A stretch of 29,661 nucleotides of DNA, taken from positions 1 through 29,661 of IMG/VR virus record IMGVR_UViG_3300013137_000075; one strand, 5' to 3'. Positions 4,944 to 29,266 of this stretch are shown here, one piece after another (the first letter of the stretch is position 1; every line of letters begins with the position of its first letter). Below the pieces are notes generated by a model that saw only the letters and a program-made list of their open reading frames with translations, was not told the DNA's origin and made no database searches. The position numbers and the translations under genes are program-made. Source of the stretch: a virus.

Positions 4944-5956
4944 ACCACCTCCAACCGGCATGCCCCATCCGGCTGCCACTCCCGCGCGATGATCCGCACC
5001 GTCGTATCCACCGGCTGCCACGCGCCCGACCGCAGCAGCGCCTTCAACCCCACCGTGTCTCCCACATCATACGCGCTGTACATCGCCGGTGCCCGGTTCA
5101 ACGCCTTCCCGACCGTATAGCGCATCGCAGGCGCCCTCATCGACGCCAGGAGCTGCGCCGCATTCGCATCCAGCGTTGCCTGTTCGCTCACTCCCGTCTG
5201 TACCTCTGCATACTCCCGGTACCCATATGCGCTCTGGCTCTCCGTGTCCTCCGCCTCGCTCGTAATCCGGCTTGATCCCCACCCATCCCCGGCGCCCGCC
5301 AGCCGGATCGCGTTCGCTATCGTGCCCTGCTCATCCAGCACCACCTCAGTGCAATTGTGCCCCTCAATCAAATGCACCCGGGATGATCTATCGCTCCCGC
5401 GCGCCTGGTACCAGTTCGCGTTAAACGTCAGCACGCCGTTTACATAGCTCGGGACCACCGCAAAATCCATCCCCGTCAGCGTCGCCAGATCGCCATACCG
5501 CGCCAGCAGGTCGTGATAGTGGTACTCCAGCGTCCGTGCATCCCCGCCCATATACACGCTGCCCACACTCACCCCCACCGGCATGATAGCAGACTCCTCC
5601 AGCAGCAGCGTGGAGAATATATACCCCGGCTCTTGCGATCTGAAATATCTGGATTTCGCCGTCACCCGCCAGTCAATCAGCTTCTCTGCCGTATACGCGT
5701 TCACCGTCACATTGTGCCACGTCCGCTGCCGCGGCGTATCGATCACACCGCCCCAGTCCGGCAGCCCATTATTAAACCGGATCAGCACCCGGTTCCCGAA
5801 CGCCAGATTTGTCGGAGTGCACTTCACATCGCTGTACGACATCGAAAATACGGCCTTGCCCGTATTGTTCAACCGCCAGTTCACAAACTCCAGATTTGGC
5901 TCCACCTCCGCCAGCAGCGTATTGGATTTATTGAAAATCAACACCTGAACAGCCAT
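4940..5956 (-). CDS. Tail protein resembling siphovirus ReqiPepy6 Gp37-like (tail-hub) family
   Basis: 338 residues from MAVQVLIFNKSN, chosen because AGGAGG lies directly upstream; an earlier in-frame ATG at 5995 falls within a palindromic repeat. The opening (a short strand, then NLEFVNWRLNNTGKAVFSM) and later RVLIRFNNGLPDWGGVIDTP match the beta-barrel start of tail-hub/Tal-type proteins that define their own coordinate frame. Later features are the AYTAEKLIDWRV helix region and a C-terminal DVGDTVGLKALL plus TVRIIAREWQPDG barrel. Position after the Dit-like gene supports a baseplate hub role. It probably forms the ring to which the glycosidase and peptidase attach. Confidence 0.7.
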   Translation of the reverse strand: MAVQVLIFNKSNTLLAEVEPNLEFVNWRLNNTGKAVFSMSYSDVKCTPTNLAFGNRVLIRFNNGLPDWGGVIDTPRQRTWHNVTVNAYTAEKLIDWRVTAKSRYFRSQEPGYIFSTLLLEESAIMPVGVSVGSVYMGGDARTLEYHYHDLLARYGDLATLTGMDFAVVPSYVNGVLTFNANWYQARGSDRSSRVHLIEGHNCTEVVLDEQGTIANAIRLAGAGDGWGSSRITSEAEDTESQSAYGYREYAEVQTGVSEQATLDANAAQLLASMRAPAMRYTVGKALNRAPAMYSAYDVGDTVGLKALLRSGAWQPVDTTVRIIAREWQPDGACRLEVV

Positions 5957-11235: not shown

Positions 11236-11284
11236 CCGTTCGTAGTAGAGACTTCAGACTTCCGACTTCAGACTTCCGACTTCC
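11236..11284. repeat. Composite repeat: family D tail plus 14-bp tandem units
   Basis: CCGTTCGTAGTAGAG, the outer half of family D, is followed by two exact units ACTTCAGACTTCCG (11251-11264, 11265-11278) and a partial third. On the minus strand the unit supplies the last codons KSEV and the stop of the chaperone frameshift product. A related GGAAGTTTGAAGTT sequence ends the gp7-like gene with KAEV. Confidence 0.7.
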
Positions 11285-11891: not shown

Positions 11892-11957
11892 CCTGGGAGC
11901 GCCGCCTGGGAGCGCCGCCTGGGAGCGCCGCACCCCAGTGCGGCACATTGCGGCATC
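11892..11957. repeat. Palindromic repeat family A, tandem copy
   Basis: CTGGGAGCGCCGC is repeated three times in tandem, the last leading into the hairpin GCCGCAC-CCCA-GTGCGGC (11927-11944) and CATTGCGGCATCT. It separates the second tube-like gene from the chaperone gene. Family A copies recur at 12388, 12879, 20207, 23018, 24659 and 26346. Confidence 0.85.
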
Positions 11958-11964
11958 TCAACGC

Positions 11965-12369
11965 TTAATCGCCTCCAGGCACAACCCCTACCGTCACCGT
12001 CGACGTGATCTGAAACTCAATCTTCAGCGCTACCTTATCCCGGATCTTGAACCCGACGCTGCGCTTCGTCACAATCGCCTCCGCGCTATAGGCCGGCAGC
12101 CCTGCAACATAGCCTTGCGGATACCAAGCCAGAGTATTGCTTGCTCCGGGTGGGCACGCATTATACACATCCCCCCCGCTGTCATCAAAACCGTCAAACA
12201 CAGCCTTCCGGTCCGTCACCCCGCCGGGAATATACGTGCCGTCATTGTCCCCAAACGCCGTCACGTCCGGAGCCGCGTGCTCCTCATCCACATCCAGCGA
12301 CGCCCCGTGATCTGAAATCGTCGTTGCGTCGAATGTCACAAACAAATCCGATCCAGAATATTTCGTCAT
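11965..12369 (-). CDS. Tail tube-like protein, second paralogue
   Basis: 134 residues from ATG at 12369 (TTG at 12372 is adjacent; GGAGGG lies upstream). By hand alignment it is about two-thirds identical to the protein encoded at 12462-12854, sharing HGASLDVDEEH, GGVTDRKA, FDGFDD, AIVTKRSVG and KIRDKVALK. The alternating strand pattern, small size and position before the chaperones fit a major tail tube protein. Extra residues include VYNACPP with a Cys and a C-terminal VVPGGD. Which of the two builds the tube, or whether both do, cannot be told from sequence. Confidence 0.65.
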   Translation of the reverse strand: MTKYSGSDLFVTFDATTISDHGASLDVDEEHAAPDVTAFGDNDGTYIPGGVTDRKAVFDGFDDSGGDVYNACPPGASNTLAWYPQGYVAGLPAYSAEAIVTKRSVGFKIRDKVALKIEFQITSTVTVGVVPGGD

Positions 12370-12387
12370 CAATCCCTCCTATGGATT

Positions 12388-12461: not shown

Positions 12462-12854
12462 TTATACCGTCCCTGCCGTCAGCGTCCCGCTCAACTGAAA
12501 CTCCACCTTCAGCGCCACCTTGTCCCTGATTTTCAATCCAACGCTGCGCTTCGTCACAATCGCCGTTACGCTGCGAGACGGCTTCCCGGCTGAATTCCCC
12601 TGTGGATACCACAACAACGTCGAACTTGTCCCCGGCGCCACGCCCGCGAAAATCGTGCCTGCTGTGTCGTCGAAACCGTCAAACGTAGCCTTCCGGTCCG
12701 TCACCCCGCCGCCCACATACGTGCCGTCATCGTCTCCAAAGGACGTCACATCTGGAGCCGGGTGCTCCTCATCCACGTCCAGCGACGCCCCGTGAACCCC
12801 GATATTCACGCTGTTGAACGTAATCGCCAAATCACTCCCCGCATATTTCGTCAT
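12462..12854 (-). CDS. Tail tube-like protein, first paralogue
   Basis: 130 residues with GGAGGG upstream of the ATG. It is the near-duplicate of the next gene (about 87 of 128 aligned positions identical by my count). The protein is beta-rich with an acidic loop (FGDDDGTYVGGG) and a conserved C-terminal strand pair KRSVGLKIRDKVALKVEFQL. Its place after a tail-terminator-like gene and before the chaperones suggests major tail protein. The two genes and their repeat-containing gaps form a tandem unit of about 485 bp, pointing to an unequal recombination event. Confidence 0.65.
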   Translation of the reverse strand: MTKYAGSDLAITFNSVNIGVHGASLDVDEEHPAPDVTSFGDDDGTYVGGGVTDRKATFDGFDDTAGTIFAGVAPGTSSTLLWYPQGNSAGKPSRSVTAIVTKRSVGLKIRDKVALKVEFQLSGTLTAGTV

Positions 12855-19175: not shown

Positions 19176-19205
19176 GTTCGTAGTAGAGGTTTTAACCTCT
19201 ATCCG
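19176..19205. repeat. Palindromic repeat family D downstream of the capsid gene
   Basis: GTTCGTAGTAGAGGTTTTAA plus CCTCTATCCGC; core AGAGGTT-TT-AACCTCT. It starts 2 bases after the major capsid stop. Related copies at 20691-20717 and 28833-28862 are inside coding sequence. Confidence 0.8.
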
Positions 19206-19206
19206 C

Positions 19207-20254: not shown

Positions 20255-20755
20255 CTATGAATGCCCCCACAACCTCCCCGCATTCTTCCGGATCTCCTCC
20301 GGGCTCATTGCCTCAATATCCAGCGGCGTCCCATTTCCCCCACCTGGTGGGGGAGGATTCCCCGGTCCCGTGGGTGGCTTCAAAAATGCCGCCAACCCCT
20401 TCGCATCCTGCAGCATCTCCTCCCGCGTGGTTCCCTGCAGCCGCCCCGCCATCCCCAGCGGGATCTTCGCCTCTACTGCCACCTGCATCCGCATCCGCTC
20501 AGTCCGCTCTGTCTGTAACTCAGCCTGCGCCTTCTCGTACAACTGCTGAAATTTCTGCTGTTCTTTCAGCTTCTCTTCCTCAGCCGTCGCCTGCGCATCC
20601 GTCAGCGCCTTCAACGTCTCCTGGGCCTGCCGCAGCTCATCATTGATCTCCTTGAACCGCTCATACGGCACCGGTCCCGGTTGTACGTTGTTTGTAGTAG
20701 AGGTTTCAACCTCTATCTTTTTTCCGTTTCCACCACCATCATTTTCCTCCGCCAT
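20255..20755 (-). CDS. Scaffolding protein
   Basis: 166 residues, acidic and glutamine-rich with a long coiled coil at residues about 30-90 (RFKEINDELRQAQETLKALT, then AEEEKLKEQQKFQQLYEKAQAELQ), followed by LQGTTREEMLQDAKGLAAFLKPP, the C-terminal region typical of phage scaffolds. Scaffold proteins sit just before the capsid gene and are lost from the mature head. Residues 14-22 (IEVETSTTN) are encoded by a palindromic repeat of family D inserted in frame; the identical peptide is in an unrelated protein at 28802-29266. The insertion lies in the disordered N-terminal tail. AAGGAGG upstream supports the start. Confidence 0.8.
   Translation of the reverse strand: MAEENDGGGNGKKIEVETSTTNNVQPGPVPYERFKEINDELRQAQETLKALTDAQATAEEEKLKEQQKFQQLYEKAQAELQTERTERMRMQVAVEAKIPLGMAGRLQGTTREEMLQDAKGLAAFLKPPTGPGNPPPPGGGNGTPLDIEAMSPEEIRKNAGRLWGHS
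20691..20717. repeat. Palindromic repeat family D inside the scaffold gene
   Basis: TTTGTAGTAGAGGTTTCAAC with CTCTATC; core AGAGGTT-TC-AACCTCT. It is translated on the minus strand as IEVETSTTN without breaking the reading frame. Confidence 0.85.
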
Positions 20756-24658: not shown

Positions 24659-24745
24659 GCCTGGGAGCGCCGCACCCCAGTGCGGCACATTGCGGCATCT
24701 AAACCCCAGTTCGGCATGTTCCAACGTTCCAACGTTTTAACGTTC
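24659..24745. repeat. Composite repeat: family A then B between the terminase subunits
   Basis: CCTGGGAGCGCCGCACC, GTGCGGC, two degenerate units (CATTGCGGCAT and CCAGTTCGGCAT), then GTTCCAACGTTCCAACGTTT of family B. On the minus strand the B units begin at codons GAA CGT TAA, the end of the small terminase. Confidence 0.85.
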
Positions 24746-25387
24746 CCCATCCACCGGAATCTGCGCCAGTGCCGCCAGCTCATTAGCATCCATCGCCGCC
24801 AGCTCCCCGGCATCCGCCGTCCCCACATCCACCCGCTCCCGTGGGACATAATCCCCCGTAATCTTCAAAAACAACTCCCGGTCCCGGTAATTCCGGTACG
24901 ACGGCGTCGTTGCGCTCTCGATCAGCGCATCCAGTACCTCCGCCCGCGCCTTCCCCAGCGTCGTAATCTGCAGCTTCCGGATAATGGTTTCCATCGCCGG
25001 ATTATCCTGCTTCCACTGCCGGATCAACCGCGCACTCGCCAGGCCCAGCACCTCCGTCGCCAATTCCAGCTCCGTTTTCGGCTGCCGGATCGCCTTCGGC
25101 TGGCTCGCCCACAGCATATACACCGCCTGCCGCCAGCTCCAACCCTCCGCCAATAGCTGAACATAATCATCCAGCCACAGGCCCGCGTCCTCCGCGTTCT
25201 CGAAAATCCGACGCGCCACCTCGCTCCGCAGCTGCGCCTCATCCAGAGCATTTAGCGCCGCGTCCTCCATGCCTGGAAGCGGCAGAGCTTGAGGCGCCGG
25301 TGCGGACGGCGATGATGGAGTGTGCGAAGGCAAATCCGCTCCCGGTGCCCCAAGTTCTGCTGTTTCCAAAATCCCATCAACGATCAT
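24737..25387 (-). CDS. terS: Terminase small subunit-like protein
   Basis: 216 residues from the second ATG (5 nt after GGGAG). The first 40 residues are Pro/Ala-rich and likely disordered. A helical core follows: LRSEVARRIFENAEDAGLWL, WSWRQAVYMLWASQPKAIRQPKTELELATEVLGLASARLIRQWKQ, in which the WRQAVYMLWASQPKA to LIRQWKQ stretch looks like a helix-turn-helix that would recognise pac/cos DNA. It is directly before the large subunit, and the coiled Leu/Ala-rich end (LAAMDANELAALAQIPV) could oligomerise. Small terminases are highly divergent, so position carries much of the weight. Confidence 0.65.
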   Translation of the reverse strand: MIVDGILETAELGAPGADLPSHTPSSPSAPAPQALPLPGMEDAALNALDEAQLRSEVARRIFENAEDAGLWLDDYVQLLAEGWSWRQAVYMLWASQPKAIRQPKTELELATEVLGLASARLIRQWKQDNPAMETIIRKLQITTLGKARAEVLDALIESATTPSYRNYRDRELFLKITGDYVPRERVDVGTADAGELAAMDANELAALAQIPVDGER

Positions 25388-25410
25388 CATAACTCCCGAC
25401 TTCAGACTAA

Positions 25411-25512
25411 CCGTTTGTAGTGACCACTTTAGTGGTTGTTCCGACCGTTTGTAGTGACCACTTTAGTGGTTGTTCCGACCGTTTGTAGTGACCACTTTAG
25501 TGGTTGTTCCGA
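25411..25512. repeat. Three tandem 34-bp palindromic units (family D')
   Basis: Units start at 25411, 25445 and 25479, each CCGTTTGTAGTGACCACTTT followed by AGTGGTTGTTCCGA; core ACCACT-TT-AGTGGT. On the minus strand the two right-hand units encode the last 15 residues and stop of the spanin-like gene. The layout resembles family D (GTTCGTAGTAG plus a palindrome). Confidence 0.9.
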
Positions 25513-25882
25513 CTTCATCATACGGCTCCCATTTCGGTTCAATTCCATATTCGCGTAACTGGCTGACCAAAATCACAACCCCCATCCGCAGCCGGTTCAT
25601 CTCAATCTCCCTGCTGCTCTCCCGCGCCTTCAAACCATCCAGATCCTCCCGCAGCGCCTTGTTATCCGCGCGCAGCATTTGGTTGTCTGCCTGGATATCC
25701 GCCACCAGGTCTCGTAACCGGTTCCACTCATCCGCGTCCACCCGGATCCGGTTGTCGATCTCCTGCGCCTGCACCTGCGCCTGTAGTTTTCGCGCCTGCA
25801 CCCTGGCATTCCACAAACCAAGACCCTCGCGCCCGGCAAGGGTCAACATAACCGTGATCACAATATCTAACCACTCAGGCAT
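25463..25882 (-). CDS. Rz-like spanin candidate, TM plus coiled coil
   Basis: 139 residues. A TM helix (IVITVMLTLAGREGLGL) is near residues 6-23. A long charged region follows (RVQARKLQAQVQAQEIDNRI, then RLRDLVADIQADNQMLRADNKALREDLDGL), a coiled coil of the sort found in inner-membrane spanins and other phage lysis proteins. It overlaps the upstream membrane gene by 8 nt. Residues 125-139 (GTTTKVVTTNGRNNH) come entirely from the 34-bp palindromic array. I could not identify an outer-membrane spanin, and a host lacking a typical outer membrane would not need one, so another role such as a lysis cofactor is possible. Confidence 0.55.
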   Translation of the reverse strand: MPEWLDIVITVMLTLAGREGLGLWNARVQARKLQAQVQAQEIDNRIRVDADEWNRLRDLVADIQADNQMLRADNKALREDLDGLKARESSREIEMNRLRMGVVILVSQLREYGIEPKWEPYDEVGTTTKVVTTNGRNNH

Positions 25883-26847: not shown

Positions 26848-27900
26848 CTAACCGCGCTTTAACTCTGCCAGCAACTTCTCCAACTGCGCGATCACCTCCG
26901 CATTCCCCGTCTCCGCCCCCGCTCCACCCATCCGCGCAATCCGCGCCGCCACATCCCCATCCTGCAGCACCCCATAAATCCCGTCCGTCGTCGCCAGATT
27001 CGAGTGCATCACATTCTGACTGATCGCCTTCAAATCTGCCGGATTCCGGGCATGGTCGATTGCGTGCACCACATGCCCGTGACGTAATTTATGTGGCGTC
27101 ATATACGGCACATGGGCCATCTCGCACAACCACATCAGATCCCCCCGCAGCGCGTGCGCCCGTTCCGGATTCTGCGTGAACACCGGCCCCAATGCCTGTC
27201 GCCACAACACCTCACTGAGCGCCGGATACCACATCGCATTCCCAGGCATCTCGGACCGCAAGCGCGTGTCCCATGCCTCCACCACTGCCAGCAGAGACGG
27301 GATCTCCAGCAAAAACGTTGTCGCAGATTTCCGGAACTTCGTCTTAATCCCCAGATTCGTCCACTGCCGGATCTCCCGGCCCTGCACATTCACCGCCCGC
27401 AGGGGCATCGTCACAAATGCGCCCACCCGCATCCCGCTCAAAAACAGCATGGCCGCTGCCGCCCGGATCCGGTCTCCCCGCAGCCCTCCGCCCGTTGTCC
27501 CCACCAGCAGCTCCATATCCAGCAGCGTATAAATCTCCCGGTGTTCCACCCCCGATGGCTGCGCAATTGGCTGCAGCGAGTCCAGCCACATCAACGTAAT
27601 TTTTCGGTACCGCCTGGGATACGCGATCACCGCCCAGCGGAAAAACGTCCGCGCATCACTCACCAGCTTCGCCTGCGTCGCCGCCGCCAGTGGCTCCCCA
27701 TCGCGCAGCTCCCTGGATATATACACCGGCCATGTCGGACGGATTGCCGGTGCATCCGACAGCAGCGCAGCATCTGCCCATGCCAGCAGCAGCCGCAGCG
27801 ACGAATGCCGTGTCGCCTGTGTCTTCGCCGCATCCCTCTTCACATCTCGGCGATAAACCAGGTGCGCCTCAACATCCTTGAAATTCTGTCTGTCAATCAC
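26848..27900 (-). CDS. int: Tyrosine recombinase/phage integrase
   Basis: 350 residues starting at GTG, which overlaps the stop of the upstream HTH gene by 8 nt; a GTG at 27927 is an alternative. The catalytic domain shows all key residues: Arg158 in SGMRVGAF, Lys near 186-188 in TKFRK, HKLRH (His270, Arg273), His299 in NVMHSN and Tyr309 in TTDGIYGVL. The N-terminal part (RATRHSSLRLLLAWADAALL, AATQAKLVSDARTFFRWAV) resembles an SAM-like/core-binding domain. It catalyses site-specific integration or excision. The DNA beyond its 3' end is a candidate attP. C-terminal helix after the Tyr is as expected. Confidence 0.85.
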   Translation of the reverse strand: MIDRQNFKDVEAHLVYRRDVKRDAAKTQATRHSSLRLLLAWADAALLSDAPAIRPTWPVYISRELRDGEPLAAATQAKLVSDARTFFRWAVIAYPRRYRKITLMWLDSLQPIAQPSGVEHREIYTLLDMELLVGTTGGGLRGDRIRAAAAMLFLSGMRVGAFVTMPLRAVNVQGREIRQWTNLGIKTKFRKSATTFLLEIPSLLAVVEAWDTRLRSEMPGNAMWYPALSEVLWRQALGPVFTQNPERAHALRGDLMWLCEMAHVPYMTPHKLRHGHVVHAIDHARNPADLKAISQNVMHSNLATTDGIYGVLQDGDVAARIARMGGAGAETGNAEVIAQLEKLLAELKRG

Positions 27901-28273
27901 GCACAAACCTGCACACCGTGCCCCCACAAATCGAACACGTGCCTCGCAGTATATATTTACGCATATTGGGCTCCTTCCTGATAGACCCTGCCATAGTCAC
28001 CGCCCGTTGGCACTTCACGCAAAACGCTTCCCCTTCCGCCAGCCGCACCCGCTCCCGTTTCAGCCCATCCATCCACTGTGCCAGCTGGCTTCCCACAATC
28101 CATAGATAACCGTTATCTTCTCGCCGGTGGGGAGCGCCCGCCGCGCACCAACGCCTGACCGATTTCGCACTCACCCCCAGTACACTCGCAATCTCAAAGG
28201 ACCGGTACTCCATCTCCAGCAACTGCCGCATCCCCTTCCGCGCCCGCGTACTAATCCGTGGCTTTCTCTCCAT
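27893..28273 (-). CDS. Helix-turn-helix plus zinc-ribbon protein coupled to the integrase
   Basis: 126 residues from the second ATG (GGAGA 8 nt upstream). Residues about 10-65 form a helix-turn-helix (MRQLLEMEYRSFEIASVLGVSAKSVRRWCAAGAPHRR reading: FEIASVLGVSAKSVRRWC is the DNA-reading part), and the C-terminus has two Cys pairs, CVKC and CSIC (with a trailing GTVC), a zinc-ribbon-type arrangement. The stop overlaps the integrase start (GTGATTGA), so the two are made together. It may guide or regulate recombination like an excisionase/RDF, or be a transcription factor; the HTH is MerR-like in style. The zinc-finger arrangement is seen, the function is inferred. Confidence 0.65.
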   Translation of the reverse strand: MERKPRISTRARKGMRQLLEMEYRSFEIASVLGVSAKSVRRWCAAGAPHRREDNGYLWIVGSQLAQWMDGLKRERVRLAEGEAFCVKCQRAVTMAGSIRKEPNMRKYILRGTCSICGGTVCRFVRD

Positions 28274-28817: not shown

Positions 28818-29266
28818 TTTGACTTTTCCCTGTTCGTAGTAGAGGTTTCAACCTCTATCCGCTTCATTGCCACCGGTCGCCATTCACCCTGTATGGACTC
28901 GATCTGCCTCACCCTCCCCCATTGGGGGAGGGATGGGGTGAGGGTCTTGCCTATCTCCCGCCGCGCATAAACCACCACCCCCAACCCGAACCCCAGCACC
29001 AGCGCCAGCGCCATCCCCGCCACCCCGACCACACCCACTATATTCACCGTCTGTTCTGCATCCGCCCTCTGCAGCGCCTGAATCAGATATTCCTGCATCT
29101 CCAGCGCCCCCCGCGCCTGCAGCGCACTCGCCTCCGCCTCCAACCGCCGCACCTCAACCTTCTGCAGCGCCAGCTCGCGCGAATTCTGCAGCTCCAGCGC
29201 CCCCGCGGCTACCACCCCAGCGAACAGCATCAGCAGCATCACCATTACAATTCCATCGCCCTTCAT
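28802..29266 (-). CDS. Membrane protein with TM-coiled coil-TM layout and repeat-derived C-terminus
   Basis: 154 residues. A TM helix or signal anchor (IVMVMLLMLFAGVVAAGAL) is followed by a charged coiled coil (LQKVEVRRLEAEASALQARG, 34-65) and a second TM (VGVVGVAGMALALVLGFGLGVVVY, about 77-100). After residue 107 the chain is largely made of translated repeats: LTPSLPQWGR (109-118, from family C) and IEVETSTTN (137-145, from family D). The parental gene thus likely ended soon after the second TM. The start is within the end of the upstream gene (113-nt overlap), an unusually long overlap. Role unknown; possibly a membrane scaffold or lysis-related factor. Confidence 0.6.
   Translation of the reverse strand: MKGDGIVMVMLLMLFAGVVAAGALELQNSRELALQKVEVRRLEAEASALQARGALEMQEYLIQALQRADAEQTVNIVGVVGVAGMALALVLGFGLGVVVYARREIGKTLTPSLPQWGRVRQIESIQGEWRPVAMKRIEVETSTTNREKSKWNSI
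28833..28862. repeat. Palindromic repeat family D inside a coding gene
   Basis: TTCGTAGTAGAGGTTTCAAC with CTCTATCCGC. Translated on the minus strand as IEVETSTTN in frame, as in the scaffold gene. Confidence 0.85.
28912..28946. repeat. Palindromic repeat family C inside a coding gene
   Basis: CCCTCCCCC-ATT-GGGGGAGGG plus ATGGGGTGAGGG. Translated on the minus strand as LTPSLPQWGR. The element remains in frame with the gene at 28802-29266. Confidence 0.8.

Follow-up and report, generated by a model that had tools for sequence, protein, structure and literature searches.

A tandem array of putative GTAG-type REP elements at the 3′ end of a phage coiled-coil protein gene

REP elements have been described inside ORFs and in tandem clusters, their termini can supply stop codons, and the ends of coding regions hold slightly more than 10% of intragenic REPs; GTAG REPs are known in Chloroflexi, and head-to-tail REP dimers are absent or rare in most genomes (PMC3733652). 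Tandem REP arrays have also been published (PMC3116915). REP stems of 5 bp were reported by Di Nocera in 2013 (PMC3733652), and the REP rule of Quentin (2018) demands seven stem pairs (PMC6006769). In vitro, the transposase TnpA-REP acts strand-specifically on single-stranded REP DNA, and how REPs spread inside a genome or from one genome to another is still presented as an unsolved question (PMC8266576). In the part of the literature covered here, no paper on REPs within phage genomes was found. The DNA analyzed is bp 1-29,661 of IMG/VR virus record IMGVR_UViG_3300013137_000075 (the "window").

The three-unit array and the end of the 139-aa gene

A head-to-tail run of three identical 34-bp units occupies bp 25411-25512 of the + strand (Table 1), as an initial annotation of the sequence had proposed. 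The repeat listing and a 34-mer search agree with Tandem Repeats Finder (25410-25513, period 34, copy number 3.1, 100% match, 0 indels), and the exact 34-mer occurs three times in the window versus zero expected from dinucleotide shuffles. The unit has the layout GTAG-TG-ACCAC-TTTA-GTGGT, an imperfect palindrome with five Watson-Crick pairs (ACCAC/GTGGT), a TTTA loop and two further wobble pairs. A second set of repeats in the window, family D, reads GTAG-TAGAGGT-TTYA-ACCTCTA and has a perfect 7-bp stem. The suggestion that the two are variants of one design holds well, as both have a common GTTYGTAGTRR head, a variable paired stem and a TTYA loop. In GTAG-type REPs a GTAG or GTGG tetranucleotide precedes a hairpin by 0-2 nt and the loop measures 2-5 nt; both the 34-bp unit and family D are built in this way. 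With respect to the Quentin rule (a fully paired stem of ≥7), the seven pairs of family D are perfect and those of the 34-bp unit are five Watson-Crick plus two wobble pairs. We conclude that the array almost certainly consists of GTAG-type REP elements, with the GTTYGTAGTRR head followed by a hairpin with a TTYA loop.

Table 1. Coordinates of the REP copies of the window and of nearby phage genes
Feature	Position (bp)	Strand	Basis
Degenerate REP, head intact, stem mismatched, 2 nt past stop of 60-aa ORF, runs into GACTTCAGACTTCC repeats	11238..11265	+	
Solo REP, family D (different 7-bp stem), directly adjoining stop of major capsid protein	19176..19206	+	
Solo REP, family D, inside N-terminal coding part of scaffold-like ORF, read as KKIEVETSTTN	20690..20720	+	
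Terminase small subunit gene, begins 20 nt past REP array	24737..25390	-	Position and relatives
REP core GTTTGTAGTGACCACTTTAGTGGT, unit past stop codon of 139-aa ORF	25413..25436	+	Family pattern
REP core GTTTGTAGTGACCACTTTAGTGGT, middle unit, loop gives TAA stop	25447..25470	+	ORF reading
139-aa coiled-coil phage protein, hydrophobic N-terminus	25463..25882	-	ORF; residues 8-124 homologous, 125-139 REP-encoded
REP core GTTTGTAGTGACCACTTTAGTGGT, unit wholly translated on minus strand inside GTTTKVVTTNG	25481..25504	+	ORF reading
Tyrosine integrase (Phage_integrase)	26848..27927	-	Family match
Solo REP, family D, encodes C-terminal region KRIEVETSTTN of 154-aa ORF	28832..28862	+	

On the minus strand the 139-aa ORF ends ...KWEPYDEV-GTTTKVVTTNGRNNH*, where GTTTKVVTTNGRNNH is residues 125-139 and is encoded by the REP units. 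The first unit that the ORF reaches encodes G125 onward, the TAA stop (bp 25463-25465) lies in the hairpin loop of the middle unit, and the last unit (25411-25444) lies beyond the stop, so that the initial description of how the repeats furnish this protein end is confirmed. Since 34 is not a multiple of three and the frame therefore shifts from unit to unit, any number of units ≥2 should give the identical C-terminus.

Hydrophobic at its N-terminus, the protein also contains a coiled coil, and its gene follows a membrane-protein gene. It matched no Pfam or PHROG family above cutoff, no protein in phage records and, by peptide patterns, none in viral contigs; the spanin-like character proposed in the initial annotation is at most putative. 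One homologue was found, a 132-aa protein (L126:1598-1996) encoded after a membrane-protein gene in an Anaerolineae prophage (genome G273). This single, weak match (28% identity, pairwise E 2e-7) aligns with residues 8-124 and stops at ...WEPYDEV in the window and ...WTPDDEM in the prophage, whose remaining tail, MHNGSGQVAGA, is unrelated to GTTTKVVTTNGRNNH and lacks a REP. Judged from this one clear but weak homologue, the conserved protein appears to end near residue 124, in line with the check put forward in the initial annotation (a natural end near residue 123), and the unrelated, repeat-free tail of the homologue indicates that the C-terminus of the 139-aa protein is captured REP sequence, in agreement with the earlier idea of repeat capture by a gene end. 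The ORF and the homologue together show that the REP has replaced a nonconserved tail and supplied 15 residues and the stop codon. An "empty site" reading based on the 9-bp direct repeat CCGACTTCA that flanks the array was also considered; deletion of the stretch between the two copies would give ...YDEVGSYDDR* running into the start of the terminase small subunit gene. It was not counted as evidence because half of CCGACTTCA is unit sequence and GACTTCAGACT is itself repeated in the window.

The phage, its relatives and its other repeats

The window contains matches to terminase, portal, P22-like coat and integrase genes, and the integrase together with the structural matches indicates that the phage is probably temperate. 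The closest TerL relative among 298 Anaerolineae-class genomes is 64% identical (G220), and the gene order on its contig is membrane protein, terS and terL, without the 139-aa gene. Host candidates are split between a genome that has a near-exact REP core and no TerL relative (G001) and one that has the TerL relative and no REPs (G220). No second record of this phage came to light, and both the GTTYGTAGTRR hairpins and the 139-aa protein are absent from 15 viral terminase relatives. In viral contigs, the exact core and the flanking 23-mer gave no other match and the NCAC-stem and D-stem patterns none at all; the CGR-stem pattern was present in four of 2.9 million, which are the four other contigs that the scanned patterns reached. 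In one 10-kb putative viral contig the same REP family occurs in several copies that resemble REPINs (L112:374-436 and 5099-5169).

All five REP loci of the window lie at or overlap gene boundaries, and the peptide read in frame from the REP in the scaffold-like ORF recurs at the end of the 154-aa ORF. The window also has a second hairpin family, CTGGGAGCGCCGCACCCCAGTGCGGCA, whose layout (GGAG, a perfect 7-bp stem and a CCCA loop) resembles that of a REP; it occupies seven loci (11894-11962, 12389, 12878, 20206, 23016, 24657 and 26342). By the pattern used, it is absent from the 298 Anaerolineae genomes, and two inverted copies some 130 bp from each other were seen in another viral contig (L137:2908 and 3035), which otherwise does not match the window at the DNA level. 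Two adjacent paralogous genes at 11965-12372 and 12462-12854 encode related ∼130-aa proteins and form a tandem duplication (repeats D4/D5).

All five repeat families that were checked (REP, the GGAG hairpin, TACGCAACACGC, the AACGTTCC octamer and GACTTCAGACT) are found only on the + strand, which is opposite to nearly all genes of the window. Such one-strand placement may result from strand-specific insertion or from selection that acts on gene ends.

The REP family and RAYT genes in Anaerolineae

The near-exact core GTTYGTAGTGACCACTTYAGTGGT was found in only one Anaerolineae MAG of the genome collection (CH7, on two contigs), where its copies are arranged as REP, spacer and inverted REP, as in REPINs. 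The family pattern (GTTYGTAGTRR head, free stem and TTYA loop) matches this MAG 28 times versus 0 for the control, in which the pattern is read backwards. The pattern is present in 58 of the 298 sampled genomes of the class Anaerolineae (Chloroflexota) in up to 146 copies (backwards control, 0-1), so that the family is dispersed and multicopy as GTAG-type REPs are; most host copies that were read form REPIN-like inverted pairs, and one genome (G093) has tandem REPs. The family-D stem was absent from the 298 genomes searched. Three stem pairs are free to vary; across 60 different host copies they remain paired in 94% of cells versus 57% after the arms are shuffled, and none of 2000 arm shuffles reached the observed pairing; such compensatory stem changes mark what is, by covariation, a recognised hairpin.

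Members of this family flank, on both sides, two genes for REP-associated tyrosine transposases (RAYTs). The first (L063:1339-1956 in G093) scores 96 bits against model NF047646 (cutoff 80), and the second (L079), a relative, lies just under that cutoff at 73.8. The 21 closest RAYT relatives (identity of about 42% and above) have 30 REPs around them versus 0.48 expected from genome averages, present in 9 of the 21 loci, and in one of the loci read (L083) head-to-tail solo REPs lie beside the host RAYT. REPs are carried by 16 of 21 genomes with a close RAYT versus 42 of 277 others (Fisher p = 6e-9); the p-values for this association overstate its significance as related species are not independent, but the effect is nonetheless very large. 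The distant RAYT loci that were fetched (L095-L109) have no REPs of this family. By genomic association, then, the REP family is linked to one RAYT lineage in Anaerolineae hosts, and it has the design that the 34-bp unit and family D share.

Origin of the array and comparison with known systems

The window has no RAYT gene. The reading preferred here, with a probability of roughly 0.7, is that a RAYT-linked REP of Anaerolineae entered a temperate phage in trans, came to lie at the end of the 139-aa gene and expanded in tandem. A solo REP would have entered during a stay of the phage in a REP-bearing host and landed at the 3′ end of the gene, and slippage or unequal recombination would then have multiplied the single copy to three, head-to-tail, a mode of growth that is suggested by the perfect identity of the units. 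Taken by itself, the proposal that a host RAYT acting in trans was the source of the REP seems reasonably likely.

The REP might instead have arrived within a block of host DNA through homologous or illegitimate recombination rather than RAYT transposition, and the other short repeat families of the window (D2, octamer and heptamers) are what a general uptake of intergenic DNA might leave; this is unlikely, however, as the REPs are single ∼31-34 bp units located precisely at gene ends, nothing else around them is recognisable as host sequence, and several independent copies have different stems. It is still less probable that the array has been retained for a benefit to the phage, in ending transcripts, stabilising mRNA or providing a functional protein tail. 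The position of all five REP loci relative to genes would suit such a role, and mRNA stabilisation has been proposed for REPs (PMC3733652), but there is no terminator-like T run at the array, its fold is weak (z between -1.6 and -2.4 for a single unit, and between -0.15 and -1.4 for the whole array), relatives are without REPs and the tail of the homologous protein is unrelated; the REP-encoded tail has most likely been tolerated and not selected for. Finally, identical tandem palindromic units could also make up an iteron, a recombination site or a CRISPR-like array that is specific to the phage and has no relation to host REPs, but this is very improbable, as the units are contiguous at period 34 without unique spacers (a CRISPR array was rejected for this reason), the window has no Rfam match, and the same family is absent from the 15 terminase relatives and dispersed beside RAYT genes in Anaerolineae.

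A broader and rather doubtful extension of RAYT-mediated entry is that the RAYTs of hosts place REPs into phage DNA in a strand-specific way and that temperate phages thus ferry REPs between hosts. If so, the + orientation of the REPs (5 loci) and GGAG hairpins (7 loci) would trace back to insertion into a single strand that was exposed, and REPs would accumulate at the ends of phage genes as new protein tails. In a phage that bears REPs of a host-linked family, insertion can be studied in a compact and datable setting, and such a phage could be a vehicle between hosts.

The closest described systems are the GTAG-type REP/RAYT (TnpA-REP) systems (Nunvar 2010, PMC2817692; Di Nocera 2013, PMC3733652; Quentin 2018, PMC6006769; Corneloup 2021, PMC8266576). 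As in those, a GTAG stands 0-2 nt away from a short hairpin whose loop has 4 nt, the stem exists in many variants, and the copies are dispersed; some flank RAYT genes, some lie in ORFs or at ORF ends, and some form tandem clusters. Unlike those systems, the REPs of the window are in a phage genome without a RAYT, the array is head-to-tail (a dimer type rare in most genomes, according to Di Nocera) and the stem of the 34-bp unit is short. The REPINs of Bertels and Rainey (2011; PMC3116915) are two inverted REPs with a short spacer, like most of the host copies read, whereas those in the window are solo or in direct tandem, all on the + strand. Rickettsia palindromic elements (PMC10969869, PMC3733652) are likewise palindromic mobile repeats that are read in frame within proteins, but they are unrelated in sequence, and their place is within genes of bacteria and not at the end of a phage gene. 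The parts of this arrangement are each known separately, REPs in genes and REP tandems having been published, and such elements are rarely found in phages; what is less usual here is that a phage carries them and that all the repeats lie on one strand. To the known tendency of REPs to become protein ends, the array contributes an example from a phage.
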